From positions 1-64,000 of the forward strand of contig NZ_JAAITU010000002.1 in NCBI RefSeq assembly GCF_013304385.1: a stretch of 64,000 nucleotides of DNA. Reading direction: 5' to 3'. This document shows positions 5,026 through 24,117 of this stretch, one piece after another. The notes below the pieces were generated by a model, which was not told the DNA's origin, did no database searches, and saw only the letters and a list, made by a program, of their open reading frames with translations. The stretch's first letter is position 1. Every line of letters starts with the position of its first letter. Position numbers and translations under genes: made by a program. Origin of the DNA: Blautia glucerasea. GTDB lineage: Bacteria; Bacillota; Clostridia; Lachnospirales; Lachnospiraceae.

Positions 5026-8000
5026 TTACCGAACCGTCACCCGTACCACCTTCCTCTTCTTTCCTGACTTAACCGTTATCCTTGCGCTCCCCTTTTTCTT
5101 CCCGGTAATCACCCCTCTCTTATTCACGGCCACTATCTTTAAATTGGATGACATATAACTAACCTTTTCCTGGGAAGTAATGGGTGAAAGCACAGGCTTC
5201 AACGCCAGCTTTCCTTTTCTTTTCAAAGTCAGCTTTCCTTTCAGCCCGGTAATACTTTTGGTTTTCACAGTCTTAGCTTGCACAGTTACAGTAAGACTTA
5301 ATTTCTTTCCGCTTGCCAGAACAGCTGTTACAGTGGCTTTTCCCTTACGTAAGCCCTTGATCACACCTTTTTTCGATACAGACACAATTTTCCTGTTAGA
5401 ACTGGTCCAGGTTTTCACCAAGTCCCCGTTAGCCAGGCCTGACACTGACACCTTAGATGTAGTCTGCCGGATCTTAAGGGGAATGCGCTTTACATTCAGC
5501 TTCCCTGTAGGAGACAGCTTCTCACCCACTGTACGGGTCTGTACAGTACCCTTGCTGCCTGTCCGCTGCTGTACCTCCGGTTCAAACACCGTAGCAGGTG
5601 AAAGAGTTGACCAGGTGCCAAAAACCTCTGGTTCATCCGGTACCGGCGTAGGTGTTGGCGTAACAATGATCTCTTTTCTTTGGATCGTCAATATATAATC
5701 ACCTGTTTTTCCGGTACGGGTACGTACTGTGATCCGTACCTTTGCCTCCTGGATCTCAGGACTTTTATCCAGATAAATGGCGATCCTGCTGGCATTACCG
5801 CTTCCTGTGGTTTTGCCAAAAATACTTACCTTCAAGGTTCCCTGGATCCCTGCTGCCGTTACTTCTGCATCTGATTCTTCTGTTTCTGCAAAAATATTGA
5901 TAAAATCACGGTTTCCGGTATAAAGCACCCGGTATTCCGCTGTATTTCTGTCAAATGCCGGAGAGATCGCCAACCGTGCCGGAACATTACTGTAAGTATT
6001 GCTGGTGCTTACTGTCAGATTCTCAAGCGACGGAACAGACTGATCCCTTGTAATATAAAATACGTATTTTCTGCTTTTTCCAAGACACTGCGCCAGCACC
6101 TGCACCTCTGCCTGTCCTGAAGATACATCAACCGTATAAGCGCTGGTAATATTTTGTCCATTCACGGACAAGGTACAGCCATCCAAAGCCTTAAACTGCA
6201 AAGTTACAGTTTTTGTTTCCTCCCCGATCAGCAGAGTATGCTCTGTTTTACTTTTCCGGAACATATCCTTCCACTTGATCGTACCTGCATCTGATTGTGC
6301 GGTTACACTGTCAATATATGCTCCGTTACATTCCACTGCCATCAGATAATTGGAATCATTCTTGAAATAAAGAGTTCCATCACGGTCAGCACAGATGGTA
6401 CTGATACAGTATTCTGCCTGATCTTTCTCAGGTCTGAAAATCTCTGCAGCTGTGCCGGAGGTCTGTCCTGGTGCATCTGTCAGCATATAAATACCGCCAG
6501 GCTTTGCATTATAAGTAAAATACAGATACACCCGGCCGTCCGGAAGCCCGTCTCCGTTATAATCCCGGTTCTCGTAAGCGGTAGACATCAAGGGGGCAGC
6601 CTGAGGGTATCCTGGAATGGAAACATTATAAGCAAGGGACAGACCGGAAGATGTTTCTGTAAGGACCGCAAAATGGTGTCCTCCATCCGGATTAAACTGG
6701 CCGCCTGTACCGCATACACCCACATAAATCCTGCCCTTGTATACTACAGGAGATGCAGTTGCCATCCCCCCAAGACTGATGCTGTCCGTCTGACCGAAGG
6801 TTCCGTTCTGATTCATGGCGATCCTGTAAAGATAACCGCCTTTGGTGGTAAAATACACATACCCATTCTGGTAAACAATGGTAGACCGGATATCTCCTTT
6901 CAGCCCTGTTTTCTGATCTATCAAAAGCCCTGTATGGGTATTGACAGAATACAGAATTGCTGTATTGGTGTAGTCGTTTTCGGCCCCGTCATCTGACCCA
7001 AACACAAGATAATCCTTGGATGCATAGGCTCCTGCCCAGTAAAAACCACCTTTATGATTATATTTCCAGGTACAGTATTTCACCTCATCTCCCCTTGTGG
7101 GGTCCTCATCTGTAACAGACAGGCAGAAATAAGTTCCTGCTGTTGTTTCATTATCCCAGGTACCTGTATAAATATATCCGTCTTTATATGTAACAGGTGA
7201 AATCGTCTGTCCACCTATAGATTCACTGATCCACAGGGACTTAAGGGTAGTGGCACTGATTGCCTGGATTTTTCCGCCTCCAATCTGTGCAAACAGCATC
7301 CCCTCTGCATAAGTCAGTGGAATCATAGCATAGACCATGCTTCCTGATAGCGGGTCACTGGTTTCCTGGATCTCCCCTGTGTTCCTGTCCAGTCTGTAAA
7401 TATATTTTCCGGAAGCTACATACAGCTGGCCTCCAAGGATCAGCGGCGGAGTTACAGAAGCTTCCCAGCTGCCTCCCAGTTTTTTGGACCATTTTTCCAG
7501 TGCAGTTGAAGAGTTTTCCGGAGTTTCCCAGTTCACAACACCATTATTCGTATCACTGTTTCTGAAATTAACCCAGTCATTGTCTTGGATCTCTGTATGG
7601 CGTGCAGCAGCTTCCTGAAGGTCTGCCTGGATCAGGGCTGTTTCCCCTCCTGTAAATGTGCCATGGGCACCTACATAACCATAGCAGGAGACTGTCCATG
7701 TATAAGCTTCTCCATTTAATATATTATGAAATAAATGCAGATTATCCGAATCTGGTATCTGTCGGCTTCCTGCTGCATCATATACACTGACTACAGCCTG
7801 GGAAGGCGTGATCTGAAAGGCAAGATCTGTGCCTGCTTTTCTGGACACTGTCACACAATAATTTCCCTGTGATGTATATGTACTGCCCTGGTAAGCCGGA
7901 TCCTCATAAGTATCCTGCACTTCCATGGAAAGCTGGATCCTTGTTTCCTCAGTGCCAAGGGGAACATCTACTGGATCGGATGTGGATACCGTGATTCCAT

Positions 8001-8880
8001 TCACCTTCAGCTGGTACCAGTTCTCACCATATGCATTTGCCAGAAGCTTTACGCTTGTATCAACGGCAGGAACAATTGCCTCATATTCTCTGGTTTTTCC
8101 TGTAGTATCAAAATTCCGGACCAAATTTTCTGTAAGATCTGTATCAGAAGATCTGTAGCATCTGATATTCTTAAGATCCAGGCGGCGAAGCACCAGGATT
8201 TTATATACCTGGCTGTCTCCTTCAGTTCCTGCTGTAATGGTATAAACTGCCCTTTTTCCACCCTGTATACCGGATGTAAAGATCCTGCTGCCAAGACTAT
8301 AGCGAAGTCCTTTTGAAGAAGCTGCAGCATCCATTTCTATTGTTTCCTGGGTATGATCCAGGGTCCATGCTGACAATCTTGCTTTAGCTCCTTCCGGTGC
8401 AGCAGCTGACAGATCTCCGGTCACATAAAAGGAACCTGAATCATAATTGGAGCTGTATTCTACTGTATAAACCTTTCCCTGAAGTTCCTCATCCAGATCC
8501 TCCCTGCGGTTCATTTCCAAAGGTGTTTTTACAGAATCGCTGACATATACATTCAGATCTGTCAGGTATTCCTCTGACTGGGCATTGGTATCCTGTACAT
8601 CTTCAAACAAGAATTCCTCTTCTGTTACATCATAAACCTCTTCCGGCTCTGTCGCTTCATCTGCAAACTCTGAAGAATCTTTCCCGAAAGCTTCGCTTTC
8701 ATCTGAAGTAAAATCTTCGGTAGAAAATACATCCTCCGGCTCTATTGTATCCTGCCGGGATTCCTCTTGTATATCCTCTGCCACATCAACAAACTGTTCT
8801 TCCCCATACACCTGTACACTTCCGGTTATAAGTGTTAATGCCAGCAAAGCAGCCATCCATTTTCTCATTTTTCTAGCCAT
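5026..8880 (-). CDS. Secreted surface protein with PQQ-like beta-propeller, cadherin-like and Big2 domains
   Basis: A 1284-residue exported protein. The start chosen is ATG 8880 (GGAGGG just upstream, then a K/R-rich signal peptide); an in-frame ATG at 8907 overlaps the previous stop as ATGA but would put nine extra residues ahead of the signal. Parts: signal peptide (about 1-26), acidic low-complexity stretch to about 110, beta-sandwich domains, a PQQ/WD-like beta-propeller (about 430-855) with repeated V-Y-x-G-x-Y and A-S-P-V-V-Y-K motifs, a cadherin-like beta-sandwich (about 955-1080), a Pro/Thr linker and two Big2-like Ig domains (about 1130-1284). It has no sortase motif; Big2-type domains may hold it to the wall. 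It is the last gene of the riboswitch-led operon. In Bacteroides the B12 capture protein BtuG is also a surface beta-propeller; a similar job here is only an analogy. Confidence 0.88.
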   Translation of the reverse strand: MARKMRKWMAALLALTLITGSVQVYGEEQFVDVAEDIQEESRQDTIEPEDVFSTEDFTSDESEAFGKDSSEFADEATEPEEVYDVTEEEFLFEDVQDTNAQSEEYLTDLNVYVSDSVKTPLEMNRREDLDEELQGKVYTVEYSSNYDSGSFYVTGDLSAAAPEGAKARLSAWTLDHTQETIEMDAAASSKGLRYSLGSRIFTSGIQGGKRAVYTITAGTEGDSQVYKILVLRRLDLKNIRCYRSSDTDLTENLVRNFDTTGKTREYEAIVPAVDTSVKLLANAYGENWYQLKVNGITVSTSDPVDVPLGTEETRIQLSMEVQDTYEDPAYQGSTYTSQGNYCVTVSRKAGTDLAFQITPSQAVVSVYDAAGSRQIPDSDNLHLFHNILNGEAYTWTVSCYGYVGAHGTFTGGETALIQADLQEAAARHTEIQDNDWVNFRNSDTNNGVVNWETPENSSTALEKWSKKLGGSWEASVTPPLILGGQLYVASGKYIYRLDRNTGEIQETSDPLSGSMVYAMIPLTYAEGMLFAQIGGGKIQAISATTLKSLWISESIGGQTISPVTYKDGYIYTGTWDNETTAGTYFCLSVTDEDPTRGDEVKYCTWKYNHKGGFYWAGAYASKDYLVFGSDDGAENDYTNTAILYSVNTHTGLLIDQKTGLKGDIRSTIVYQNGYVYFTTKGGYLYRIAMNQNGTFGQTDSISLGGMATASPVVYKGRIYVGVCGTGGQFNPDGGHHFAVLTETSSGLSLAYNVSIPGYPQAAPLMSTAYENRDYNGDGLPDGRVYLYFTYNAKPGGIYMLTDAPGQTSGTAAEIFRPEKDQAEYCISTICADRDGTLYFKNDSNYLMAVECNGAYIDSVTAQSDAGTIKWKDMFRKSKTEHTLLIGEETKTVTLQFKALDGCTLSVNGQNITSAYTVDVSSGQAEVQVLAQCLGKSRKYVFYITRDQSVPSLENLTVSTSNTYSNVPARLAISPAFDRNTAEYRVLYTGNRDFINIFAETEESDAEVTAAGIQGTLKVSIFGKTTGSGNASRIAIYLDKSPEIQEAKVRITVRTRTGKTGDYILTIQRKEIIVTPTPTPVPDEPEVFGTWSTLSPATVFEPEVQQRTGSKGTVQTRTVGEKLSPTGKLNVKRIPLKIRQTTSKVSVSGLANGDLVKTWTSSNRKIVSVSKKGVIKGLRKGKATVTAVLASGKKLSLTVTVQAKTVKTKSITGLKGKLTLKRKGKLALKPVLSPITSQEKVSYMSSNLKIVAVNKRGVITGKKKGSARITVKSGKKRKVVRVTVR

Positions 8881-8903
8881 ACACCCTCCTTGCTCCTTTT
8901 TGG

Positions 8904-10523
8904 TCATGCCCTTATCCTTCTATCCGTTCTTTTGTACATCCTTTTGTAATGCCTTTTAGCAGCGGTAAAAAGCAGGATATATGCCAGGCCTGCCACTGCG
9001 CCTGCCAGCATCAGCTTTGTGGAAAGCCGCAGCCCCTTAAAAGCAGAAAAAATACTTTTTTTACCGGATGAACTGTTTTTCTGCAGATCTTTCGTATCAG
9101 GTGCCTGACTTTTGTCACCGGTATCCTGGGAAAAAGAAGATTTTATATTTTCCGCTTTGTCTTTTTCACTGCTTTTGGTTTGTTCCTTTGCAGTTTCTTT
9201 CTTCTTATCCTTGTTTTTCTTCTTAGCTGTTTCTTTATCTTTAATCTGACTTTTCTTTTTTCCAATAGCCAACTGAGCAGATCCCATTGCCCCGGCACTG
9301 CCTGCTGCCCCGGATGGATTTTTCAGAGATCCTGCAGTTCCCTGTACGTTTTTCAGCTTGTCAATAGATCCATCCCCGCCAGAACCAGGCTTTGTGGCCT
9401 GGGATTTATTCCCTCCGTATCCTGGTCTTGATGCCAGGCTGCCTGATGTGGCAGCTTTTATATCCGGGATCCGGATCACAAGCTGTTCACTGATATTGCC
9501 TGCCAGATCCTTCACTGCTATGACCAGATCCTTTTCCCCTGCAGTCAGGCCGGTAAGGGCGATGGTATCTGTTCCTTCACCTACCTGGGTTCCTTTTTGG
9601 GAAGTATCCAGCTTTGGCAGGGCTGCACCAGCCTGTGTCACCTGATAATACCGGTAACCTTTTTCACTGGTCTTATATACCACAGAAGCCGTATCCGTAG
9701 AAATTCGGCTTGCACTTATTTTCTTTAATACAGGAGGGGTTGTATCCATTGTAGACAGAGTCAGGTAGTAATCCTTTTTCATACCGTCAGAAGCTGTTAC
9801 CTGGATCCTCACCTCCAGTTTTCTTTCGTTATCTGCAAACACAAGCTTCCAGTATCTATGCCCCATTCTATCATCATGATCTTTGATAGATTCATCCTTT
9901 TCCACAGTAGAAGCTTTCACACCGCTTAATGCATATACATGGATCTCACATTCTCCTGCTGCCTCAGGCCACAGATTCAGGCTCTTTCGTTCCCCCTCAT
10001 AAACTGCTTTATACTTATTGTGCTCTACAGACAGCTGCGGATCCAGCTTCAGGATCCCTTTACCGTAAGTATCAGAACTGGACACGTATAAAGCCTGAAG
10101 TACAGGTGTTTCTGTTGGCTGTGGTTCTTCTGTTGGTAATGGTATTTCCGTTGGCAGCGGTGCTTCTGTTGGCAATGGTGCTTCCGTTGGCAATGGTATT
10201 TCTGTTGGCAGTGGCGCTTCCGTTGGCAATGGTATTTCTGTTGGCAGTGGTGCTTCCGTTGGAAGTGGCACTTCTGTTGGTACCGGCGCTTCCGTTGGTA
10301 ATGGCACTTCTGTGGGCAGAGGTACTTTTGTTGGCACTGGTGCTTCTGTTGGTACCGGCACTTCTGTTGGCAATGGCACTTCTGTTGGTGCCGGAATCTC
10401 TGTAAGCACAGGTCCTGCTGTAGGCAATGGATTTTCGGTTGGTATCGTTTCTCCTCCTGTTTCGGTTTGCAATGACCCAAGAAGAAGAACGACAAGAAGC
10501 ATTCCTGTTAATAATCGTTTCAT
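8904..10523 (-). CDS. Stalked, C-terminally membrane-anchored cadherin-like surface protein
   Basis: A 539-residue protein starting at the ATG inside TAATG shared with the previous stop; an ATG 15 bases earlier would lie inside that gene. Parts: signal peptide (about 1-23), 19 hexapeptide units of the PTEAPL kind (28-141), a cadherin-like beta-sandwich (about 145-260), an Ig-like domain starting at a TTPP motif (about 265-360), a Gly/Ser then Lys-rich linker, and a C-terminal membrane helix followed by a basic tail rich in R and K. The topology is outside, helix, then positive tail inside, so it is anchored in the membrane with a long Pro-rich stalk through the wall. It lies between the DUF4430 protein and the beta-propeller protein and could hold or present a capture complex; that role is inferred. 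Confidence 0.88.
   Translation of the reverse strand: MKRLLTGMLLVVLLLGSLQTETGGETIPTENPLPTAGPVLTEIPAPTEVPLPTEVPVPTEAPVPTKVPLPTEVPLPTEAPVPTEVPLPTEAPLPTEIPLPTEAPLPTEIPLPTEAPLPTEAPLPTEIPLPTEEPQPTETPVLQALYVSSSDTYGKGILKLDPQLSVEHNKYKAVYEGERKSLNLWPEAAGECEIHVYALSGVKASTVEKDESIKDHDDRMGHRYWKLVFADNERKLEVRIQVTASDGMKKDYYLTLSTMDTTPPVLKKISASRISTDTASVVYKTSEKGYRYYQVTQAGAALPKLDTSQKGTQVGEGTDTIALTGLTAGEKDLVIAVKDLAGNISEQLVIRIPDIKAATSGSLASRPGYGGNKSQATKPGSGGDGSIDKLKNVQGTAGSLKNPSGAAGSAGAMGSAQLAIGKKKSQIKDKETAKKKNKDKKKETAKEQTKSSEKDKAENIKSSFSQDTGDKSQAPDTKDLQKNSSSGKKSIFSAFKGLRLSTKLMLAGAVAGLAYILLFTAAKRHYKRMYKRTDRRIRA
10101..10442 (-). repeat. 18-bp minisatellite coding 19 Pro-Thr-Glu hexapeptides
   Basis: In-frame 18-base units encode PTE(A/V/I)P(L/V), 19 times in tandem, with the most regular units in the middle. 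Copy number in such arrays can change by slippage without breaking the frame, so stalk length may vary between strains. Confidence 0.9.
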
Positions 10524-11875
10524 TACCAGTCCCCCCATGTTTCTCCTGTTTGACCGGCCCCTACATCAGCACCGGAATACAAGGAAAAGCGAAGCCGTAT
10601 CTCATCTCCGTCTGCCGGAAAATAAGCAGACATTCCCACATTCATATATTCTCCGTTTACAAAGTACAGCCATCCGGATTCCATTGTAAAATCAAATTCC
10701 CCGATCCAGTTGGCATCATGCTCTGACAGCTGGCAGTTGGCAGCGATCAGATGATCCATCAGATCCTGCGGAATAGCAGCGCTGGCAGCAATCCCGCCTC
10801 TCCCAATGGCTTTCAGGTAAAAGCCTCCGGAAACATCGCCATCATTTCTCCAATCAAAGCCCTGGGTCTGCAAAAATCTTAAAAGTACGGAAGACAGCTG
10901 TTCTCCTTGATAAAACCCTATGGAGGTAGATGGAAGAATAGTTCCAAGACCAATGGTACCAGCTTCAATACTGATGGTCACAGATCCTGCAGGCTGCTGC
11001 TCCTCCTCTGAGCCTTTATAAATGGTAAACACAGGAAGAGTGGTACATCTGCCTTCCTCATCTGTGGCACGGATCTCTATGGTATTGGCTCCTTCTGCCA
11101 GATCCAGCCGGTAGGCAAAGATTCCATCAGAAGGCTCTCCTCTGGAAGAAAGCCGCTGTCCATTTCCTGTGATCTGAAGTGCCGAAGCCGAAAGGCTGTT
11201 GCCATACCAGTCCTTTGCCTGTACGTAGAAAGTTCGGTAAGAAGCATTGACAGTTTCTCCATCTGTCAGATCTGTGGCAACCGTAGGATACTGATTTACC
11301 GGTTCCTCAGGCACCGGTGAAGGAGTAGGTGCTTCTGTAGGAGCAGGCGTTACCGGTACCTGTGCGCCATCTTGATTACGGTCGTCATTCTGATCAGGAG
11401 CACTTTCCTCATGCTCCGTGTTGTTTTCTTCACCTGAAGGTTCATATACAATGGTATTGGTCTGGGAATCCGGATCCGGCACTGTGGGTGCGTCTGTCAC
11501 CTGAACAGGGGTTGGATCCGTCTTATCCTGTATTTCTTCTGGATCTGCAGGCGTTACAACAGGCACAGGGGAAGGTGTTATTTTTTCTTCTTGGGGTGTT
11601 ACCGTAGGTTCAGGCAAAGTCTGAGCCTGCTGGATAAAATCCTGTTCTCCCTGACTGTTTCCTTTGTCCTGTCCGCCATATGCATATCCCTTGCCAAGAT
11701 ACCCCTTTAAGGAACTTTGGGCATTGATCCCCTGAATAGGATCTGTCTGGATCTCCTGCTTTTCCTGACGAAATCCGCTGTACAACACAGCCAAAAAAAA
11801 CATCAGAAATGCCAGTAGAAGAACACTTGTCCATATTTTGTTTTTCCTGTTTTTTCCCTTGCTCCTTTTTTTCAT
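10523..11875 (-). CDS. Membrane-anchored protein with C-terminal DUF4430 (transcobalamin C-terminal-like) domain
   Basis: A 450-residue protein: basic N-terminus, one membrane helix (about 14-35), a long Pro/Thr/Glu-rich linker (about 85-195), an Ig-like domain (about 195-290) and a C-terminal DUF4430 domain (about 297-450). The DUF4430 hallmark is clear: an SGWLYFVNGEY motif, then N-V-G-M-S, then a D-G-D-E-I-R-L-R-F strand. Pfam places this domain with the beta domain of intrinsic factor and transcobalamin, which closes over bound cobalamin. The gene starts 8 bases after the transglutaminase-like gene and shares TAATG with the next gene. Together with the alpha/alpha-toroid lipoprotein four genes upstream it suggests a two-protein corrinoid binder. 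The domain call is strong; the ligand is inferred from the riboswitch. Confidence 0.9.
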   Translation of the reverse strand: MKKRSKGKNRKNKIWTSVLLLAFLMFFLAVLYSGFRQEKQEIQTDPIQGINAQSSLKGYLGKGYAYGGQDKGNSQGEQDFIQQAQTLPEPTVTPQEEKITPSPVPVVTPADPEEIQDKTDPTPVQVTDAPTVPDPDSQTNTIVYEPSGEENNTEHEESAPDQNDDRNQDGAQVPVTPAPTEAPTPSPVPEEPVNQYPTVATDLTDGETVNASYRTFYVQAKDWYGNSLSASALQITGNGQRLSSRGEPSDGIFAYRLDLAEGANTIEIRATDEEGRCTTLPVFTIYKGSEEEQQPAGSVTISIEAGTIGLGTILPSTSIGFYQGEQLSSVLLRFLQTQGFDWRNDGDVSGGFYLKAIGRGGIAASAAIPQDLMDHLIAANCQLSEHDANWIGEFDFTMESGWLYFVNGEYMNVGMSAYFPADGDEIRLRFSLYSGADVGAGQTGETWGDW

Positions 11876-11883
11876 TGCTTTCT

Positions 11884-14187
11884 TTAATATAGCCTTTCAA
11901 TATATTTCATAACCCAGTTGTCAAACCAGCTTTTCTGTTTCTTTAATTCCTTTTTCAGGATCCGGATACATTCCCTGCAGGTATCCTTTTCCTGAAGCTG
12001 TATTTTGTGCGGGCTGAAAGCCGCCTTCTGCCCAGCCTGATAAACCTGCTGATACAGCTCCTCTGCCCTTTTTGAATACCCATTCTCTCCTCTGCTATAA
12101 AGATCCTCTGCGTATCCGGCCATTGCGCAAAGGGCTTTCTTATCATCTCTGCTTAAAAACCGCTTCCTGCGCCTGTATGAAGCACGTATCCGAAGCATAA
12201 CCACAGTAAAAATAAAAAGCACACAGAAGCCATCAAAAACAGCCAGGAAAAGAAGGAAAAACTTTTCTATGCCAAACAAGGCAAGCTTCAGACTCCAGTG
12301 AGTCTGTATATTTTCCTCTTCCTGCATAGTCTGTGTTTCTTCTGGCACTGCCTTTGCCTGTCTGCCCTTTGCCTCCAGGCCTGTTTTCAGGTCAGCCTCT
12401 TCCATAACCCCATAATATTCGGGAGTCATTTCCACGGGTATCCATCCAAGTCCATCAATATAGATTTCTGTCCAGGCATGGCCGTTTTTACCCGGGATAT
12501 TAATAGTATCTTCTGATGTCTTATCCTGAATGTCAGAAGGAGTGACCAGATATCCTTCCACATACCTGGAAGGAATGCCATAATATCGGAACATTAAGGC
12601 AGCTGCTGTTGCAAAATGTACACTATGACCAATCTTCTTATCTTCCAGAAATTCACGGACAAAATCACCACTTTTGCTGTAAGGATCTGCAGCACTGCTG
12701 TATGTCATATGCTTTTCCAGATAAGCTCGGATCCTGGTAATGGCTGTATAGTAATCCGTATGTCCCTGATTTCTGTCTCCTGCCTCTCCCAGTTCCTGCT
12801 TAAATAAACTTTCAAGAGCTGCTGGCAGCTGCAGGTCATTGGCGTAAACAAAAGCATTATAATAGCTTTCCGCCTGTCTGTATCCCGGATCTTTCCCTGT
12901 AGCAAGAAGCTGGTATATCTGCGCCCCCAGGTCTGTAAACTGGCTGGTAAGAGGCTGAACAGTGGTAAAAGAATAGTTACGCTGGCCCCAAAATCCTTTT
13001 GCGCCAACTGTACTGTCTGCCAATCCATCCTCTCCCTGACACCCTTCCGGAAGCTGCTGCATTTCATATGATGTATAAAGATATCGGCTGTCCGCAGCCA
13101 GATTTTTTACGCTGATCTTCTGGCTGCTGATGCTGGTATCTGTAAGCCTGGCGCCACTGGCAAGCTGTGTTTCCCCATAAAAGCCTTTCTGATGCAGCCA
13201 GTAAAAAAGATTACGTTCCTGATAAGCACTGGAAGGATCTATGCTTTTCCAGCTGCTGCCATCATACCTGGAGCCCACGAAGCCACGCAGGTACATGGGC
13301 TGAGGCTTTTCCATGGAGATCCTGAGAGCCGTTTCATCAGAACCCGTCCAATTTCCTGTATTTTTCAGATTTCCCCCGGTAAGACCATTTAACTTACCCT
13401 TTTTAAAACGAAGATCATACAAGGCTTCTCCTGCTTTTTCCTTTGCATCAGACACAACTTGCAGATCCTGATATTCTTCCTGGGGAAGCATTCTTGCAAG
13501 AATCAGGCCTGCAGCCAGAATCACAGCTGTCAAAAAAAGTATCCCTTCCCCAAAAGCCAGATCCTGTGCAAAGGCATCCTTGCCTGTGAGCATCCGGATC
13601 AAGCCAAGCACCAGGGAAAAATAAAAAATAACAAAAAGATCAGGATCCGGGAAACTGCCGGTAAGCACCATAAGCACCACAGGCACCACACCATACAAAA
13701 CCAGTATCAAACTGATCCGCCAGCGAAAAAAAAGATACCCTGCTGCTCCGGCAGCTATCCCAAGGCAGACCAGAAAAACCGTTGCTGCCAATTCCGTATC
13801 CACATCTGTGACAGTCTGATACCGTACAAGATAGATCCCGGCACTGCTCCCAAGCAGGTCTGCCCCTTTATTCCAGAATACCACAGCTCCTGCCAGTAAA
13901 AGCCTGCGAAAGAAAAAAATAATGATTCCTGTAATCAGAACAATCAGGGTTCCTGTAATCTGTCTGCCTTTTTTCATAGTTTCGGTAAATAAACAGAACA
14001 GTGCCGTAAAAAACACACTGCTTAAAAAAGGCAGTCTGTCTTCGGCCCCTGTAAGCATTTCAAGAAGCAAGAATATCCCTGCCCCGCAAATCCCCAGGAT
14101 CAGTCCAGCTTCCAGCAAAATACCGGGCAGCTGCTGTCTGTATTTTGTTTTTTGTTTTTGTCCTGGCATTGTAAGCCAAACTTCCAT
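11884..14187 (-). CDS. Polytopic membrane protein with degenerate transglutaminase-like domain
   Basis: A 767-residue member of the TgpA-type family: about six membrane helices in the first 240 residues, an extracytoplasmic transglutaminase-like core, one helix at about 670-690 and a cytoplasmic tail. The start is ATG 14187 with AAGGAG 10 nt upstream, overlapping the DUF58 gene by 88 bases. In active members a Cys-His-Asp triad is expected. Here the Cys position in the G-x-C-x-x-F-A block is Ser522 (AGT), the His is kept in HAW (His570), and the Asp is Glu586 in G-W-I-P-V-E-M-T-P. It is therefore probably not a normal transglutaminase or protease and may act as a binding or scaffold domain. 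MoxR, DUF58 and this family commonly occur as a set. Confidence 0.85.
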   Translation of the reverse strand: MEVWLTMPGQKQKTKYRQQLPGILLEAGLILGICGAGIFLLLEMLTGAEDRLPFLSSVFFTALFCLFTETMKKGRQITGTLIVLITGIIIFFFRRLLLAGAVVFWNKGADLLGSSAGIYLVRYQTVTDVDTELAATVFLVCLGIAAGAAGYLFFRWRISLILVLYGVVPVVLMVLTGSFPDPDLFVIFYFSLVLGLIRMLTGKDAFAQDLAFGEGILFLTAVILAAGLILARMLPQEEYQDLQVVSDAKEKAGEALYDLRFKKGKLNGLTGGNLKNTGNWTGSDETALRISMEKPQPMYLRGFVGSRYDGSSWKSIDPSSAYQERNLFYWLHQKGFYGETQLASGARLTDTSISSQKISVKNLAADSRYLYTSYEMQQLPEGCQGEDGLADSTVGAKGFWGQRNYSFTTVQPLTSQFTDLGAQIYQLLATGKDPGYRQAESYYNAFVYANDLQLPAALESLFKQELGEAGDRNQGHTDYYTAITRIRAYLEKHMTYSSAADPYSKSGDFVREFLEDKKIGHSVHFATAAALMFRYYGIPSRYVEGYLVTPSDIQDKTSEDTINIPGKNGHAWTEIYIDGLGWIPVEMTPEYYGVMEEADLKTGLEAKGRQAKAVPEETQTMQEEENIQTHWSLKLALFGIEKFFLLFLAVFDGFCVLFIFTVVMLRIRASYRRRKRFLSRDDKKALCAMAGYAEDLYSRGENGYSKRAEELYQQVYQAGQKAAFSPHKIQLQEKDTCRECIRILKKELKKQKSWFDNWVMKYIERLY

Positions 14188-15287: not shown

Positions 15288-16219
15288 CCGTCTACCCTTG
15301 GCACAGGCACCTGTAAAAGGATCTGCTCCAGGATCTGTCTTGGACCTTTGTCCTCATACCTGGCTTTGGTATCCAGCACCATCCTGTGACCTGCCACATC
15401 TGCGAATACTGCCTGTACATCCTTTGGCACCACATAATCCCGTTTCTCCATAAAGGCATGAGCCTTGGCCATACGCATCAAAGCCAAAGTACCTCTGGGG
15501 CTTAAGCCTAAGGTGATCAACTCATCCGCCCTGGTAGCCTCTGCAAGAGAAACGGCATAGTCCAGCACTGCATCGGATACATATACCTTTTGTACCTGCT
15601 CCTGAAGGGAAAGCAGTTCTTCTCTTGTGAGCACAGGTGCTGTATGTTCCAGCGGGTTTTCTTTTTGTCTGTCACGGAGCAGTTCCACCAGGCTGTCATG
15701 ATCCGGGTACCCCATACTCAGGCTGACCATAAAGCGGTCCAGCTGGGATTCCGGCAGAAGCTGTGTACCAAGGGAGCCTACCGGGTTTTCGGTAGCGATC
15801 ACCACAAAGGGCTGCGGTACAGGATGGGCTTCCTGATCAACTGTTACCCTTCCTTCTTCCATAACCTCCAGAAGCGCAGACTGGGTCTTGCTGGAGGTAC
15901 GGTTGATCTCATCTGCAAGAAGCATATTGCACATCACTGCCCCAGGTCTGTAAAGGAACTGGCCAGAGGCTTTGTCATACATTGTAAATCCGGTTACATC
16001 TGACGGCACCACATCCGGTGTAAACTGGATCCTGTTAAAATCCATACCCATCAGCCTGCTTAAAGCCAGAGCTGTGGTAGTCTTTCCTACACCAGGTACA
16101 TCCTCCAGCAGGATATGTCCTTTTGCCAGCACTGCCATCAGCATTTTATCTGTGATCTGTTTTTTACCTTTTATGATTTTCCCAAGCTGTTCCTGCAGCA
16201 GGGTAATCTTATCAACCAA
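15284..16219 (-). CDS. MoxR-family AAA+ ATPase
   Basis: 311 residues, a normal MoxR length. Walker A is GVGKTT (about 43-48), Walker B is LLADEINR, and sensor 1 is ATENP. MoxR ATPases act as chaperones for metal centres or VWA-type partners; the DUF58 gene follows with overlapping stop and start codons. The gene begins 15 bases after the lipoprotein gene with a GGAGG-type site. It lacks any fused domain. In this setting it may remodel the DUF58/transglutaminase-like membrane partners. Confidence 0.93.
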   Translation of the reverse strand: MVDKITLLQEQLGKIIKGKKQITDKMLMAVLAKGHILLEDVPGVGKTTTALALSRLMGMDFNRIQFTPDVVPSDVTGFTMYDKASGQFLYRPGAVMCNMLLADEINRTSSKTQSALLEVMEEGRVTVDQEAHPVPQPFVVIATENPVGSLGTQLLPESQLDRFMVSLSMGYPDHDSLVELLRDRQKENPLEHTAPVLTREELLSLQEQVQKVYVSDAVLDYAVSLAEATRADELITLGLSPRGTLALMRMAKAHAFMEKRDYVVPKDVQAVFADVAGHRMVLDTKARYEDKGPRQILEQILLQVPVPRVDG

Positions 16220-16234
16220 TATCCTTTCCTCCCT

Positions 16235-17197
16235 CTATTTGTTATCGGTCATATTATATAAGCTGTTTTGCTTTTCCTGTAATCTGTGATAGGCTGCCAG
16301 TGCACAGAAAGCCTGGTCAGTTGCCAAAGGATCCGCCTCTCCCTTGGGAATATGGGCAAAGCCTCCATCACCCGTTGAAAATTCCATCAGTCTGTCGTAA
16401 AGACCCTTCCCGTCTTTTTTAAACCGGCTGTCTTCATTACAGTCCACCCCGTAAGTAGAAAGGGCGATCACTGTCTGGGAAATGGATTCTGAGCTTTTTG
16501 TACCATATGCAGTGTATCCTCCATCTTTATCCTGGGCATCCGCCAGGAAGGTGATCCCTTTTTCTATGGTTTCTTTTACATCCTTATCCTGCTGATAAGG
16601 CTCCAGGCAGGTCAGTGCCATTGCTGTGATATCCACATCTGCTGTATCTGCCTGATCACTCAAAGAAAAACCGCCTTCCGGTTTTTCTTTTTCAAGGATA
16701 AAATCCAGATATTGTTTCTCAAGTGGCCCATCCACATCCAAGCGGTCTGCATTCAAGGCAAGAAGTGCAAAAACAGCGCCGTTCAGTCCTTGGGAAACCA
16801 CGGTGTCATAATCCTCCAAAGCCTTTGTCAGATCATAGCCTGCAACATCTTTCGAATCATCCCCGATGGCTGTCAGGGCAAGGATCGCCCTGGAATATTC
16901 CGTATAACGGTTATCGCTTAATACGCCTTCCTGTTCCTTTACTCTTTTTTCCAGGTTGGCTCTGTATTTTTCATAATAATTATCCTCCACCTTAGCACCT
17001 GATCTGGCAAGTGCCAGCACCGTCCACTCTCCTCCAAGAGTATTAGATTCAGGAGAAGTAACCGTTTCCATTTCATAAGCAGCTGTTTTCTTAATAGCAT
17101 CCTGTGGTGTTTTGCTGCTGTTCCCACATCCTGTAAGCATTACTGCCCACAGCCCGCCTAGCAGAAGCCATTTTCTTATTTTATATTCTCTCACCAT
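16235..17197 (-). CDS. Lipoprotein with alpha/alpha-toroid (prenyltransferase/transcobalamin alpha-like) domain
   Basis: 320 residues from the ATG that shares one base with the TIM-barrel stop (TAATG), with GGAAGGAGG about 10 nt upstream; a longer frame would run into the previous gene. Residues 1-24 form a lipoprotein signal with lipobox LTGC (Cys24). The rest is helical and repetitive, with G-G-F/Y turns followed by long helices (near 172, 222 and 279) and motifs such as DVDITAMAL and SQTVIALSTYG. This is the pattern of terpenoid-cyclase/prenyltransferase-type alpha/alpha toroids, the fold also used by the cobalamin-binding alpha domain of intrinsic factor and transcobalamin. No cyclase DDTAD-type catalytic motif is kept. 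As the only lipoprotein beside an ECF importer under a cobalamin riboswitch, it is the best candidate for a corrinoid-binding partner of the DUF4430 protein. Confidence 0.88.
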   Translation of the reverse strand: MVREYKIRKWLLLGGLWAVMLTGCGNSSKTPQDAIKKTAAYEMETVTSPESNTLGGEWTVLALARSGAKVEDNYYEKYRANLEKRVKEQEGVLSDNRYTEYSRAILALTAIGDDSKDVAGYDLTKALEDYDTVVSQGLNGAVFALLALNADRLDVDGPLEKQYLDFILEKEKPEGGFSLSDQADTADVDITAMALTCLEPYQQDKDVKETIEKGITFLADAQDKDGGYTAYGTKSSESISQTVIALSTYGVDCNEDSRFKKDGKGLYDRLMEFSTGDGGFAHIPKGEADPLATDQAFCALAAYHRLQEKQNSLYNMTDNK

Positions 17198-17955
17198 TAT
17201 AAGGCTCCTCCTTCCAGTGCTCTGATCTTTTCCCAGCATAGCTGTGCATCCTCTTTTTTCATACATTCAATAGTCCATGTCCGTTCTTCTGTAAGGGGAA
17301 GGTTTTCCAGAACCTGCTGATAAGGCAGATTTCCCCGTCCAAGACCTGTATGGGCATCTCTGTCCCCAAGGTTGTCATGTACATGCACATGGGTCACATA
17401 AGGTGCAAGGGCTTTCGCCCACTCCCGCACATCCACAGACGAATAGCAGTGTGCATGTCCAATGTCCAGGCAAAGCTTAAAATTAGGGTGATCTACTTTC
17501 TTGTATACATCTAACAGTAATTCCCAGTCATCATCAAAAACATTCTCAAGCACAATTTCCAGTTCCTGCCTGCCGTCCATAAATTCACTGAAAAACCGTG
17601 ACACCTGATCTGCCCAGCCCTGTTTATAATATACATAAGGATTCATTCCGGAATGAAAAACGATCTTTCTGGCTCCAAGAAGCAAACCTGCCTGATAGCA
17701 CTGGTCAAACCGCTTCATAGTTACTTCCCGTACCAGTCTGTCATAGGCCGCCGGATTCACATCCAGGAAAGGACCATGGAGAATCAGTTCCCTGGTTCCC
17801 ATCTTTTTTAATTTTTCCCTGTATACATCTATGGATTCAGAAAAATGATCCAGGTTATCTGCAATTGAAAAGTCAATGCTTTCTACTCCCATCCCGGACT
17901 GACGGATCAACTCCTCCATCTGGTCATCCGGAAATAAATGGCTGATATATATCAT
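17197..17955 (-). CDS. Xylose-isomerase-like TIM-barrel protein (AP endonuclease 2 superfamily)
   Basis: 252 cytoplasmic residues with no signal. Metal ligands of the sugar phosphate isomerase/AP-endonuclease-2 superfamily are visible: His and Glu in L-H-G-P and L-E-N-V, D-I-G-H-A-H, H-V-H-D-N, H-T-G-L-G and a final T-I-E-C Glu. Members isomerise, epimerise or cleave small sugar-like substrates, so the reaction cannot be named from sequence. It lies between the ECF S component and the toroid lipoprotein, 19 bases after one and overlapping the other by one base. A role on an imported corrinoid or its nucleotide loop is speculative. Confidence 0.85.
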   Translation of the reverse strand: MIYISHLFPDDQMEELIRQSGMGVESIDFSIADNLDHFSESIDVYREKLKKMGTRELILHGPFLDVNPAAYDRLVREVTMKRFDQCYQAGLLLGARKIVFHSGMNPYVYYKQGWADQVSRFFSEFMDGRQELEIVLENVFDDDWELLLDVYKKVDHPNFKLCLDIGHAHCYSSVDVREWAKALAPYVTHVHVHDNLGDRDAHTGLGRGNLPYQQVLENLPLTEERTWTIECMKKEDAQLCWEKIRALEGGAL

Positions 17956-17974
17956 ATATTAGTTTTACCTCATT

Positions 17975-18838
17975 TCACCGCTGTATAAGCCCGTATTTTG
18001 CCTTGATCCTTTCCAGCTTTGTAAGCAGGGGCCGGCTCATGATACACAAAAAGACCACTGTAGATGCTGCATGTACCAGATCTACCGGAAGCCCCGAAAT
18101 ATAAAAAGCCAGCAGGCTTTCCTTTGTAATATGCCCATAGGCCATAAGGATGCTGGCCGGATTCATGATCCCGCCATAGATCAGCACTACGCTTAGAAAA
18201 CCATAAATACAAAGATCTGCCTTTCTGGCCTTCAGGATTCCTTTTTTATACAGGATCCCTGCAAAAAATCCAATGATTCCAAAGGAAAACATCTGCCATG
18301 GTGTCCATGGTCCCTGTCCCATAAACATATTGGAGATCAGCATGATCAGACAGCCTACCAGAAAACCTGCCTCGCCTCCAAAAGAAATCCCGGTAAGGAT
18401 CACAAAGGCAGCCACAGGCTTAAAGCTTGGCACCATGAAAAAAGCAGCCCTGCCTGCAACTCCAAGTGCAGCCAGTACAGCGATCACCATGATTTCCCTT
18501 GCCTTTGGCTTCCTGCCTTCAAACACCATAAAAAAGGGCAGCATAGCCGCAAATACAACGATCAGGCTGCTGATCATATATTTCTTCCCATGGAAGATCC
18601 TCACGGACAGATATAACAAAGCAGGCACGATCAACAGCATCAGCACAAGGGCAAACCAGGTGCGGCGCCCTACCTTACCATCTTTTTCTATCTGTCTGAT
18701 GATCAGTCCGTCTGTTGGCAGCTGATATTCCTCCAAGTTCTCTTCGGCTTCACTGCTAATCTCTCTTGAAGCCGGTTCTTCCCCAGGTATTGCAAGAAAG
18801 CTGTCCAGGAAATGGTCTAATTCCCGTTCTGTAAGCAT
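17975..18838 (-). CDS. ECF transporter S component, candidate corrinoid-specific subunit
   Basis: 287 residues: an acidic cytoplasmic N-terminal extension of about 60 residues, two helices, then a six-helix S-component core with the G-Q-G-P-W-T-P-W-Q-M loop and the A-L-G-V-A-G-R-A segment typical of the ECF_trnsprt family. S components bind the vitamin and toppled T/A modules release it inside. Substrate assignment to cobalamin or a precursor rests on the upstream riboswitch and the DUF4430 gene, not on residues. It overlaps the ATPase gene by 22 bases. The N-terminal extension is unusual for the family. Confidence 0.85.
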   Translation of the reverse strand: MLTERELDHFLDSFLAIPGEEPASREISSEAEENLEEYQLPTDGLIIRQIEKDGKVGRRTWFALVLMLLIVPALLYLSVRIFHGKKYMISSLIVVFAAMLPFFMVFEGRKPKAREIMVIAVLAALGVAGRAAFFMVPSFKPVAAFVILTGISFGGEAGFLVGCLIMLISNMFMGQGPWTPWQMFSFGIIGFFAGILYKKGILKARKADLCIYGFLSVVLIYGGIMNPASILMAYGHITKESLLAFYISGLPVDLVHAASTVVFLCIMSRPLLTKLERIKAKYGLIQR

Positions 18839-20511
18839 GCAACCACATCCTTTCCAGTTATTGCATATGGAAAATATTGTCTTGCCATCCGGTTAGCTGC
18901 TGTTGTATAGAAATTGTTCCCTGCAAAAAAGCTATTTACATCATTCTCAGTTACAATATTTCCTTCAAAAAATAATCCTACACGATCTGCATACTCTGCC
19001 ACAAATTCTATATCATGTGAAATCATAAATATAGTCATTCCATGAGATTGAAGCTTTTTCAATATTTTTCCCAGTTCTTCCTTATATTCTCCGTCCATTC
19101 CCTTTGTTGGCTCATCCATCAGAAGTATCTTTGGCCGCAGAAGAAGCACCTTGGCAAGGGCAAGTCTTTGCTGTTCTCCGCCGCTTAAATCATAGGGATG
19201 ACGTTCCAGAAGACCTTCCAGCTTTGTCAGGCTTACCATCCCTTCAATTGCTTTTTCTTTTTTCATTTGGGACTGGTATTCCAGAGACATACGCTCCTTC
19301 TTTCCTCCAATCACAGAATACAGATCCTCCAGTACCGTCTTCTTCAGGAATATACTTTGAGGATTCTGGGGAAGCACTCCCAGACAGCCAAAGTACAGTT
19401 CTTTATCCTTATAAGAACGAAGATCTCTGCCATAAAGGCGAATCCTTCCTCTGTATGGCTGATTCACCCTTGACAGCAACGATAAAGTGGTACTTTTCCC
19501 TGTACCATTTCCTCCTACAAGTGCATAGAATTCCCCTTTATTGATCTGCAAGGAAAGATCCCTGACCACATCCTGGCTATCCTTTTCATACCGGAACCAC
19601 AGATCTTTTGCCTGGATGGCAGGTTCTGTCAAACCTGAAGCTGCCTTCGTTTTCTTTATATCTGTAGGGATCTGGGGATGATCTTTTACATACTCACCCA
19701 GCCATTTTCTTCCCTGGCTTACGGTAAGAGGGCATTCTCCTGTTCCTTCCACTGCACTGAAGATCTGTACAGGCACAGGCATGGAAAGAAACATTCCCTT
19801 ATCAGCATCATGAAGACCAGCTCCAACCTCTCCTGGTGTTCCCTGCATCTGGATCCGCCCATCCGCCATTACATACACCTGATCTGCATATGGAAGGATC
19901 TCCTGCAGCCTGTGCTCCGTCAATATCACAGTAGTGCCGATATCCCGGTTGATTTTTTTTACTGTTTCCAGAAAGTCAGAGGCTGCAATCGGATCCAGCT
20001 GGGAGGTTGGCTCATCCAGGATCAAAAGAGAAGGATGCATTGCCATAACAGCAGCCAGATTCAGAAGCTGCTTCTGTCCCCCTGACAATTCTGATACATT
20101 TTTATAGAACCACTGGTGGATGCCAAAATAGCTGGCCATCTCTGCCACACGAAGCCGGATGGTTTCGCTGTCATAGCCAAGACTTTCCAGACCAAAGGCC
20201 AGCTCATGCCATACTTTATCGGTAACGATCTGATTATCCGGATCCTGCATCACAAACCCGATCTCCTGGCTTTGTGTCCTGTGATCTGTTTCAGCCAGAC
20301 TTTTCCCCTTATAGAGGATCTCCCCTTGGGTTTTCCCATAAGGAGCAAGTGCTGATTTCAGGTGACGTAAAAGGGTACTTTTCCCACATCCGCTTCTGCC
20401 GCAGATAATGTTTAAAGTGCCCTCTTTGATCTTCAGCTTTGTATGATCCAGTACCCTTTTGGAACTGTCAGGATAGGCAAAGCAAAAGTCACATATCTCC
20501 ACAATATTCAT
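18817..20511 (-). CDS. ECF transporter ATPase, two ABC domains fused
   Basis: 564 residues in two nucleotide-binding domains. Domain 1: Walker A GRSGCGKST (about residue 38), signature LSGGQKQ, Walker B LLILDEPTSQLD. Domain 2: Walker A GGNGTGKST (about 334), signature LSGGEQQR, Walker B LLMDEPTKGMD, switch His in ISHD. EcfA1 and EcfA2 are usually separate genes; here one chain does both jobs. It begins 5 bases after ecfT and overlaps the S-component gene, so the T, A and S parts should be made in matched amounts as a dedicated (group I) ECF system. Confidence 0.93.
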   Translation of the reverse strand: MNIVEICDFCFAYPDSSKRVLDHTKLKIKEGTLNIICGRSGCGKSTLLRHLKSALAPYGKTQGEILYKGKSLAETDHRTQSQEIGFVMQDPDNQIVTDKVWHELAFGLESLGYDSETIRLRVAEMASYFGIHQWFYKNVSELSGGQKQLLNLAAVMAMHPSLLILDEPTSQLDPIAASDFLETVKKINRDIGTTVILTEHRLQEILPYADQVYVMADGRIQMQGTPGEVGAGLHDADKGMFLSMPVPVQIFSAVEGTGECPLTVSQGRKWLGEYVKDHPQIPTDIKKTKAASGLTEPAIQAKDLWFRYEKDSQDVVRDLSLQINKGEFYALVGGNGTGKSTTLSLLSRVNQPYRGRIRLYGRDLRSYKDKELYFGCLGVLPQNPQSIFLKKTVLEDLYSVIGGKKERMSLEYQSQMKKEKAIEGMVSLTKLEGLLERHPYDLSGGEQQRLALAKVLLLRPKILLMDEPTKGMDGEYKEELGKILKKLQSHGMTIFMISHDIEFVAEYADRVGLFFEGNIVTENDVNSFFAGNNFYTTAANRMARQYFPYAITGKDVVACLQNGN

Positions 20512-20516
20512 AAATC

Positions 20517-21542
20517 TTATCCTTCCTGTTCCAGTTCTTCATAGATCCGCCGGTAGGTCATACCAATATCCGCACCTGCATGCTTTCGGCTGTTTTTCAG
20601 ATGTATCTGTTCTGTAAGCTCCAGGATCACAGGTAAAAAACAAAAAAGTCCATAACACAAATAGGTGGCAGCAGTTAACAAGCTGCCCGCCGATACCGGA
20701 GACGTCCTGCCCTGGATCGTAAATCCAGCCAGCAGGATCCGTGGGTTATATGAGGCATAAGCTGCCCCTTTAGCAATGCCCACAGTAAAAATCATGGACA
20801 AAAAGGCCATGACTGTCCCAAGGATCTTATCTCTGTTTGTAAACCTGTATATGGAAAAAGCAGTCCGTTCTGGAAGGCCATACCCTCGGCTTTTCATGGA
20901 ATCTGAGGTTTCAATGGCATTCTCCAATGCCCAGGTGATCAAAATAGACAAAATATTCAGCCCATACCGGATACGCCGGAATAAATTGCCTTCAGATACA
21001 TCTCTGCCCATCCCTTTCTGTCCATTACGGATCACCTTTAGCTGGTGCAAAAACTCCGGCACAAAGCGAAGAGCCATGGATAACACCAAGGACAGAGCAG
21101 GAATGATCCTGCCAAACAAATAAACAAACTTGTCGCTGGTCATTACCTGATTGTAACAGGAAAACCATTGTATCACCACAAACATCACCGTTCCAAGTAC
21201 CACTCCATATATCAATGCTTCAAGAGTCACCCAATTCCCGCTGCTCTCTATATAATAAAGCATGGTAACGCCATAATGATTAAACATAGGATTCAAAAGG
21301 GCAACGATCAAAAGGGCAGGTAATGTAAAAAAACAGCTTTGCCTCAAGGTCTTTCCTGCTCCATTCAGCAGTATCCCATAGCTTACAGCCCCGGCATAGG
21401 AAACTGCAAGAATCAGCGGATGCTGGCTGAACATGGTAAATATGAGCACAACAGCAAAATAAAAGAAATTCAGCATCGGATGACACCTGGAAAAGGTATC
21501 CGATGCCTCAAAGGTTTCAGCTTTCCTTTCGGTCTTCTTCAC
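20517..21542 (-). CDS. ECF transporter T component (EcfT-like)
   Basis: 341 residues, CbiQ/EcfT family. The start is GTG 21542 with GGGAG 7 nt upstream, overlapping the LRR gene by 26 bases. Several membrane helices are present, with a cytoplasmic helical part carrying the M-K-S-R-G-Y-G motif (the x-R-G coupling motif that contacts the ATPase). The C-terminus has two more helices and a charged tail, making it longer than the usual 260-270 residues. It transmits ATP hydrolysis to the S component. Confidence 0.92.
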   Translation of the reverse strand: MKKTERKAETFEASDTFSRCHPMLNFFYFAVVLIFTMFSQHPLILAVSYAGAVSYGILLNGAGKTLRQSCFFTLPALLIVALLNPMFNHYGVTMLYYIESSGNWVTLEALIYGVVLGTVMFVVIQWFSCYNQVMTSDKFVYLFGRIIPALSLVLSMALRFVPEFLHQLKVIRNGQKGMGRDVSEGNLFRRIRYGLNILSILITWALENAIETSDSMKSRGYGLPERTAFSIYRFTNRDKILGTVMAFLSMIFTVGIAKGAAYASYNPRILLAGFTIQGRTSPVSAGSLLTAATYLCYGLFCFLPVILELTEQIHLKNSRKHAGADIGMTYRRIYEELEQEG

Positions 21543-22392: not shown

Positions 22393-22508
22393 ATATAAGC
22401 TGGTTTCTCCTGGAATTTTATCGTTACTTTGCACTCTGTTAAAATGTATTCCCAGTACCTCCAGTGACGGCAACTGGGATATTACCTGTGAATAGTACAA
22501 ATAAGTAA

Positions 22509-22545
22509 CAAAAACAGAGCCCCACGATCTGCTGTGAGCCTCTGT
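22509..22545 (-). terminator. Expression-platform terminator of the right riboswitch
   Basis: A minus-strand stem of about 12 bp whose base is ACAGAG/CTCTGT (22514-22519 with 22540-22545), followed by TTTTTGTT. It is directly 3' of the aptamer and about 115 bases ahead of the chosen LRR start. It matches the left copy in base stem and position. Confidence 0.87.
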
Positions 22546-22549
22546 CCTC

Positions 22550-22672
22550 TTAACAACGTGTTGGATATGCTGACTTAAAATGTCTCTGTGGCATTTCACA
22601 CAGCGAAACGGTTCCGGAATCTCACCGGATTTCCTTTAACAGATCACGCCTGACCTGACCACGCCTGGTAAT
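22550..22672 (-). promoter_or_regulatory. Cobalamin-type riboswitch (right copy) heading the 12-gene operon
   Basis: On the minus strand CCGGTGAGATTCCGG (22614-22628) is the GGUGA/AAUCC-like core, followed by CGCTGTG and a short stem, then AAGTCAG (22570-22576) and a CCAACACGTTG hairpin. The 5' part has the sequence AGGCGTGGTCAGGTCAGGC. Core, 3' block and terminator base stem are shared with 4794-4950, while arm sequences differ but keep pairing, as in a conserved RNA fold. It should turn the LRR, ECF and capture genes off when corrinoid is plentiful. Confidence 0.83.
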
Positions 22673-22684
22673 TTATAATTTTAT

Positions 22685-22713
22685 ATTATATCATTTCGTA
22701 TTTTTAGTGTCAA
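22685..22713 (-). promoter_or_regulatory. Consensus sigma-A promoter of the riboswitch operon
   Basis: TTGACA (22708-22713), 17 bp, TATAAT (22685-22690): a perfect consensus. The -35 box overlaps the TGA stop of the EutP-like gene. Predicted start near 22678, at the 5' end of the aptamer. Confidence 0.88.
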
Positions 22714-23234: not shown

Positions 23235-23243
23235 ACTGTCTCC

Positions 23244-23672: not shown

Positions 23673-23683
23673 GGAACCACTTC

Positions 23684-24049: not shown

Positions 24050-24117
24050 TTGTATAAACCCTCTCTTTCAATGCATGTACTGCCTGCCGATCTGTGCTGA
24101 CAGCATCTCTTATACAA

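Follow-up and report, generated by a model that had tools for sequence, protein, structure and literature searches.

A probable cobamide capture-and-import operon in Blautia glucerasea that couples a CbrT-type ECF importer to transcobalamin-like surface proteins

Capture of vitamin B12 outside the Gram-positive membrane was predicted in 2007, when Burroughs et al. described extracellular toroid and transcobalamin-like beta-grasp proteins in CbiO/CbiQ operons and proposed that they scavenge B12 (PMC1796856). The annotation 'Additional lipoprotein component of putative cobalamin ECF transporter' (ECF: energy-coupling factor) is in use (PMC9963975), and one Firmicute has a btuH homologue in the vicinity of a transporter predicted to be of ECF type and to import cobamides, cobamide acquisition in Firmicutes being described as less understood (PMC8941943). 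Here we describe an operon on the minus strand of Blautia glucerasea contig NZ_JAAITU010000002.1, of which positions 1 to 64,000, called the window throughout, were analysed. The operon very probably encodes a corrinoid-repressed system for the capture and import of cobamides.

Twelve tightly packed minus-strand open reading frames (ORFs) run from about 22.4 kb down to 5026 in the ORF list of the window, in the order: leucine-rich repeat (LRR) protein, ECF T component, fused ATPases A-A, S component, CbiR-like TIM barrel, toroid lipoprotein, MoxR, DUF58, transglutaminase-like protein, DUF4430 protein, stalk protein and propeller protein (Table 1). The initial annotation, made from the sequence alone, had read this locus as a B12-regulated ECF importer joined to a matching surface capture set. 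The RF00174 score, the resemblance of S to CbrT, the transcobalamin fold modelled for a fused homologue and the conservation of the neighbourhood all support that reading. The accompanying claim that a capture apparatus in the same Gram-positive operon would be new or poorly described was too strong, given the 2007 prediction (PMC1796856) and the annotation in use (PMC9963975).

The single consensus promoter and the cobalamin-type riboswitch with its own terminator, both initially annotated, were recovered. The covariance search returned RF00174 as the sole Rfam match at gathering score in the 64-kb window, and a terminator-like hairpin lies at the 3' end of the aptamer, in the place of an RF00174 expression platform. 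The hairpin spans 22538-22521 by scan and about 22545-22510 when the sequence is read. The nearest relative, G022, keeps the promoter, the aptamer, the terminator stem and the U tail, past which the leader diverges (G-numbers denote related genomes, G000 being that of the window, L-numbers fetched loci and C-numbers contigs). Six RF00174 elements were found in the whole genome. The twelve annotated genes were all retained, and at 9 of the 11 junctions neighbouring genes either overlap by or lie apart by 4 to 26 bases; the exceptions are overlaps of 70 bases before the toroid gene and 130 bases before the transglutaminase-like gene. These two arise because the longest ORF start was taken: the real toroid start is probably 17197, and that of the transglutaminase-like gene, judging from where its relatives in G029 and G054 begin, probably 14187. 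The start formerly given for the LRR gene, 22599, would lie inside the aptamer, and 22392, behind a good ribosome-binding site, appears to fit better.

The T component, two ATPase domains and the S component stand together in the window, making up a complete ECF gene set of CbrT type, with T weakly matched. The T, fused A and S parts of a dedicated ECF transporter, as annotated, rest on the TIGR04520 match of the ATPases, the CbrT match of S and a CbiQ match of T below its cut-off. By motif reading, the A-A protein carries two complete sets of Walker A, LSGGQ-type and Walker B motifs. The only PDB sequence match of the S protein is 6fnp_A, listed as 'membrane protein', which we take to be the ECF-CbrT structure. 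With a 26-row profile of the S family, 6fnp was matched at 1.5e-17 and the next protein, a riboflavin uptake protein, at 1e-3. The PDB sequence searches therefore place this S component nearer to CbrT than to other S families.

The toroid lipoprotein and the DUF4430 membrane protein of the initial annotation were likewise confirmed (Prenyltrans, lipobox, PF14478 and a membrane segment). Their genes correspond to the two halves of transcobalamin and intrinsic factor. In an Oscillospiraceae genome, a natural 441-residue lipoprotein (L129:2592-3914) joins toroid and DUF4430 in one chain, directly upstream of a fused A-A-S gene. A structural model of this fusion (mean predicted local distance difference test score, pLDDT, 83.8) was compared with the PDB: every one of the 15 top-ranking matches, out of 693, is a transcobalamin, a haptocorrin or an intrinsic factor; their E values range from 3e-10 to 7e-8, and the alignments span both domains over 430-478 columns. 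Next among the matches listed come terpene synthases, prenyltransferases and others, from E 9e-6 and mostly over about 280-330 columns. Also among the matches listed, the beta domain of human transcobalamin alone aligns to the model with a template modelling (TM) score of 0.70-0.71 of its own length. The model was built with alignment A4; alignment A2 (102 rows) laid DUF4430 rows partly on the toroid and its PDB search was discounted. On the strength of this model, a transcobalamin-like two-domain fold holds for the fused homologue, the two halves in the window being separate proteins. Searched on its own, the window toroid (P0001) gave no transcobalamin-specific signal in sequence or fold searches, its sequence profile matching squalene-hopene cyclases. 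A sequence-only PDB search with the DUF4430 profile placed intrinsic factor at ranks 2 and 3 of 5 with a non-significant E of 0.63.

Four DUF4430 places were counted in the whole genome of 4 Mb. The operon protein shares features with a long surface class in alignment A5; members of a short ECF-partner class lie within the operon in G029 and G054. In the genome of the window, a short DUF4430 lipoprotein of the latter class (G000:C94, L046:4580-5164) adjoins thiE and thiD and is unlinked to the B12 operon. At another place (G000:C142, L043:6416-13256), a cobalamin riboswitch stands ahead of an LRR gene resembling the one that opens the operon, and divergent from it lies a gene for a 1736-residue protein joining a toroid, detected with a custom profile, to DUF4430. 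An LRR gene also follows a riboswitch or riboswitch-like element in G022, G029 and G054, as it does on C142.

The gene order was compared across genomes, as the initial annotation had proposed, and the neighbourhood of S, toroid and DUF4430 recurs. The S protein has matches at E <= 1e-3 in 60 of 194 related genomes, the window genome included, 43 of them at E <= 1e-20. Among the contexts of 25 relatives, toroid and DUF4430 are both present in 19 and DUF4430 in 22; neither was found in three, namely G153, whose contig ends just upstream, G175 and G160. A wider set of named loci comprised the best 80 of at least 595 S-related loci in a species-level genome collection. Here a run was defined by the same strand and gaps under 400 bases; locus or contig ends truncate many of them. 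The run holding S also holds T in 64/80, DUF4430 in 58/80, a toroid in 50/80 and both toroid and DUF4430 in 48/80. Hosts include Blautia, Acetobacterium, Sporobacter, Enterococcus, Fusibacter, Lutispora, Paenibacillus, Bacillus, Lacticaseibacillus and Anaerovorax.

The association with the riboswitch was followed in three samples, which overlap (G058 is L089) and are not to be summed. A cobalamin riboswitch lies upstream of the run on the same strand in 10 of 20 relatives, nine at gathering score (G058, G038, G134, G182, G070, G075, G160, G191 and G037) and one below it (G022, 28.5 bits). For the named genomes the count is 12/14 (L089, L093, L105, L110, L113, L117, L119, L124, L148, L151, L156 and L161), L117 having a partial aptamer of 53.9 bits just before the run; none was found upstream of the run in L094 and L160. 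Finally, 14 of 25 further loci, hand-picked mostly since their operon start was visible and hence not random, show one (L097, L108, L111, L120, L121, L122, L123, L128, L130, L142, L152, L153, L157 and L158). Left out of these counts were riboswitches at other positions in L107, L133 and L139, a second riboswitch each in L097 and L142, and the AdoCbl (adenosylcobalamin)-like elements before the LRR genes of G029 and G054, which score 40.4 and 36.5 bits for a gathering score of 50. With five riboswitches in 3.5 Mb, a rough estimate is that chance would put one on the right strand within 14 kb in about 1/100 loci. The association recurs in both Clostridia and Bacilli.

Several observations weigh against a cobamide capture-and-import operon. 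The window aptamer barely clears the gathering score (32.3 versus 31.5 bits), and no riboswitch stands at the corresponding place in 50, 14 and 44 percent of the loci in the three samples. One relative, G160, combines riboswitch and ECF genes with neither toroid nor DUF4430. The model of the window toroid (pLDDT 86.5) resembles alpha/alpha toroids generally, transcobalamin appearing at ranks 5, 7, 10 and 13 and not first, and in the model of the fused homologue the relative orientation of the domains is unlike that in transcobalamin, with a root-mean-square deviation of about 22 Å over both. As for DUF4430, the operon encodes a protein of the long surface class, and the member of the short class that partners ECF genes sits elsewhere in the genome (C94). 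The TIM-barrel protein, at 49.9 bits, does not reach the NCBIfam equivalog cut-off of 105 bits for CbiR; its relatives score 53.3 (G029), 51.4 (G054), 48.4 (L149) and 29.3 bits (L129). Finally, the host may make its own corrinoid, because the genome carries CbiD.

Table 1. Features of the operon and its leader, in order of transcription, with window positions
Feature	Position	Strand	Evidence
Sigma-70-type promoter TTGACA-17-TATAAT, extended TG	22685..22713	-	Promoter scan, 12/12 consensus; kept in G022
Cobalamin riboswitch aptamer RF00174	22543..22678	-	Covariance model 32.3 bits, gathering 31.5, E 2e-4 for 64 kb
Intrinsic terminator ACAGAG...CUCUGU + U run, overlapping 3' end of aptamer	22510..22545	-	Scan and sequence reading
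BspA-type LRR protein, no signal-peptide-like or membrane segment	21517..22392	-	LRR_5 1.5e-50; no hydrophobic segment
ECF T component (CbiQ-like)	20517..21542	-	Pfam CbiQ E 5e-4, below cut-off; six membrane-like segments
Fused double ATPase A-A (ECF ATPase)	18817..20511	-	TIGR04520 341.6 bits, cut-off 315
S component, CbrT-type	17975..18838	-	PDB sequence search: 6fnp_A, 4.8e-16
CbiR-like TIM-barrel protein (AP_endonuc_2)	17197..17955	-	Pfam 7.8e-24; best NCBIfam CbiR 49.9 bits
Alpha/alpha toroid lipoprotein, lipobox LTGC	16235..17266	-	Pfam Prenyltrans 1.6e-10; model pLDDT 86.5
MoxR AAA+ ATPase	15284..16219	-	AAA_3 1.3e-54
DUF58 protein	14100..15287	-	DUF58 8.8e-7
Membrane transglutaminase-like protein, Ser at catalytic Cys position	11884..14229	-	Transglut_core 5.6e-23
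Membrane-anchored DUF4430 (transcobalamin beta-domain-like) protein	10523..11875	-	PF14478 30.7 bits, cut-off 23.8; N-terminal membrane segment
Proline/threonine (PT)-rich stalk protein, signal peptide and C-terminal membrane anchor	8904..10538	-	Sequence reading; segments 1-24, 505-529
Large surface protein: cadherin-like, propeller-like (below cut-off), Big_2	5026..8907	-	Pfam

The MoxR, DUF58 and transglutaminase-like genes follow one another in order beside a surface protein, the arrangement of a PFNA-like cassette. One could suppose two independent units, a B12 ECF unit from the LRR to the toroid gene and an unrelated surface cassette built on this triad, reached by chance read-through; we consider this unlikely. 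In its favour, a triad of this kind accompanies an FN3 protein in bifidobacteria (PMC8430577). Moreover, a triad of the window genome stands with DUF4430 and a propeller on C175, where neither ECF genes nor a cobalamin riboswitch were found. However, the triad also lies inside the B12 clusters of G022, G029, G054, G043, G084 and G208 (the genome of L149), as in the window, and in G037 it shares the strand of S at a distance of about 26 kb. A cobalamin riboswitch of 80.5 bits in G090:C10 is followed by capture proteins and the triad, with no ECF genes at that place, and a sub-threshold element (25.8 bits) lies ahead of the triad and a propeller protein in G022:C104. The B12-linked triads, which are the ten best-scoring of 41 places plus G208, come from four genera and differ in gene order. 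As a control, the next 12 triads by score among the 31 other places were fetched; a DUF4430, toroid or ECF S/T gene was found in 0/12 of these stretches. Five of the 12 controls have an LRR-profile protein beside the triad, which could be counted for two independent units; large proteins matched by this profile adjoin the triads at L178, L179, L181, L182 and L183, which suggests that the triad is a general cassette serving different surface proteins. A tree was built from 11 B12-linked proteins and 11 controls, control L182 being left out for its broken ORFs; a single branch (support 89/89) separates the B12-linked proteins from the controls, and none of 500 shuffles gave as low a value. Some such clustering is to be expected, the triads having been collected initially through their resemblance to the window protein. 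By context and by descent as read from these sequences, the triad is tied to B12 clusters.

A second alternative, in which the transglutaminase-like protein would cross-link the capture proteins or anchor them covalently, is very unlikely. The window protein does have a transglutaminase core and keeps its His motif. However, at the aligned position, presumably that of the catalytic Cys, Ser or Asp stands in 10/10 B12-linked proteins covering it, G022 having a Cys one place earlier and the G022:C104 protein not covering the catalytic region. Since the catalytic Cys is absent, cross-linking by the usual chemistry appears unlikely. The loss is not special to the B12 lineage: 3/11 controls have Cys (seen as GYC or GFC) and 8/11 have Ser or Ala. 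It is plausible, though we would not quite favour it, that the triad lineage without the catalytic cysteine is, in Clostridia, a machine dedicated to assembling a wall-spanning complex for B12 capture, made up of toroid, DUF4430, stalk and propeller proteins. MoxR proteins have been described as chaperones of protein complexes (PMC8430577). We found no literature joining the triad to B12 uptake, in a search outside of which subscription journals and preprints mostly fell. If the idea is right, a widespread orphan triad gains a defined client and a ligand-based assay.

The ECF importer might also serve another substrate, such as riboflavin, folate, thiamine or a metal, and stand behind a cobalamin riboswitch by chance, which we judge highly improbable. 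The best Pfam family of the S protein is indeed the riboflavin S family, above cut-off, and its best NCBIfam family the folate one, below cut-off, in scans that returned no CbrT model; one DUF4430 gene of the genome stands beside thiE and thiD. Against this, CbrT is the only PDB sequence match of S, and the riboswitch association is repeated in Clostridia and Bacilli.

Class II terpene cyclases carry the motif DxDD. Despite its Prenyltrans domain and its profile matches to squalene-hopene cyclases, a reading of the toroid protein as a terpene cyclase or prenyltransferase is scarcely credible and was rejected, the protein being a single toroid with a lipoprotein signal, paired or fused with DUF4430, with DVDI at the motif position, and the best folds of the modelled fused homologue being transcobalamins.

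Returning to cobamide capture and import, we propose the following mechanism. When cobamide is scarce, the riboswitch would let transcription through the terminator. The toroid lipoprotein and a DUF4430 protein would form the two halves of a transcobalamin-like clamp holding the cobamide between them outside the membrane, and the clamp would pass it to the CbrT-type S component; T and the A-A protein would power import. Once inside the cell, foreign cobamides probably have their nucleotide loop cut by the CbiR-like enzyme, so that they can be rebuilt. The stalk and propeller proteins may place or extend the capture set in the wall, and the MoxR-DUF58-pseudo-transglutaminase triad would most likely assemble surface proteins rather than cross-link them. 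The stalk and anchors of the annotated stalked anchor are read from the sequence, with no Pfam match for the stalk protein, and the annotated beta-propeller is less firm, the propeller model of Pfam staying below cut-off. When the large surface protein (P0004) was compared with PDB sequences, neither a propeller nor BtuG was among its 31 mostly weak matches, the best being a tail fibre on the Big_2 part.

A second B12 importer, likewise with surface proteins in front, is encoded at G000:C32 (L045:1773-10170), where a cobalamin riboswitch of 84.8 bits is followed by genes for a Big_2 surface protein, a 920-residue protein without Pfam match, a BtuF-like protein, FecCD and an ATPase. Given this unit and CbiD, the host may produce corrinoid and probably has two or more routes of uptake, the window operon being one. 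On G000:C85 (L042:1558-6212) the gene behind a cobalamin riboswitch encodes a surface protein of 1441 residues with carboxypeptidase-regulatory and Big_2 domains, and an FeoB gene lies further on. Just upstream of the operon, window positions 22710-24985 hold EutP/PduV-like, microcompartment shell and ThiF-family genes. A gene with a carboxypeptidase-regulatory domain (3297-4706) lies 319 bases past the operon end and outside the operon. It has its own promoter-like site, TTGACA-17-TATACT, at 4990-4962; five such sites were found there and 5.8 are expected in shuffles.

The operon family, whose S gene has at least 595 related loci, offers a testable model in which a transcobalamin-like clamp, bacterial and tethered to the membrane, supplies an ECF importer. 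The family is relevant to gut competition for B12 and to the 2007 proposal that animals got their B12 carriers from such bacteria (PMC1796856), and it ties a triad of undefined function to a defined set of surface proteins. The core of the operon, toroid and DUF4430 with ECF genes, is of an already known kind. What looks new is the enlarged operon: the triad lineage tied to capture proteins, the stalk and propeller proteins, the LRR protein without export signal and the CbiR-like enzyme. Of these, the triad lineage and the CbiR-like enzyme look the most novel, and the initial annotation had not picked them out. Literature on DUF4430 yielded, by title, no paper about a B12 capture operon, with subscription journals and preprints mostly outside the search.

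Compared with described systems, the importer is closest to ECF-CbrT of L. delbrueckii (PDB 6fnp; PMC5997447), with which it shares a homologous S component, a T component with two ATPase domains and a B12-linked context; it differs by its dedicated T, its fused A-A and its extracellular capture set, the last of which is not mentioned for ECF-CbrT in the accessible text. The transcobalamin-like SLBB proteins of 2007 have the same toroid and beta-grasp domain in CbiO/CbiQ operons, and fusions with FIVAR and propeller domains were noted there, whereas the riboswitch link, the CbrT assignment, the CbiR-like gene and the MoxR-DUF58-transglutaminase triad go unmentioned in the portion available (PMC1796856). 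The TIM-barrel gene, earlier labelled xylose-isomerase-like, belongs to the same superfamily as CbiR, a cobamide-remodelling phosphodiesterase found near cobamide genes (PMC7733943); CbiR is its best NCBIfam family, but at 49.9 versus 105 bits it is a relative and not a proven CbiR. In the PFNA cluster of bifidobacteria, the genes of a MoxR-DUF58-transglutaminase triad likewise adjoin that of a large surface protein, but with an FN3 protein and a kinase instead of B12 capture proteins and ECF genes, and B12 is unmentioned in the accessible part of that paper (PMC8430577). Bacteroides BtuG and BtuH are also riboswitch-controlled surface capture proteins beside a B12 importer, BtuG being a propeller, but they belong to an outer-membrane BtuB system (PMC8941943). 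Finally, human transcobalamin, haptocorrin and intrinsic factor share the toroid and beta domain fold predicted for the fused bacterial homologue; they are soluble carriers with a receptor, whereas the halves in the window are separate, membrane-tethered and encoded beside their importer.

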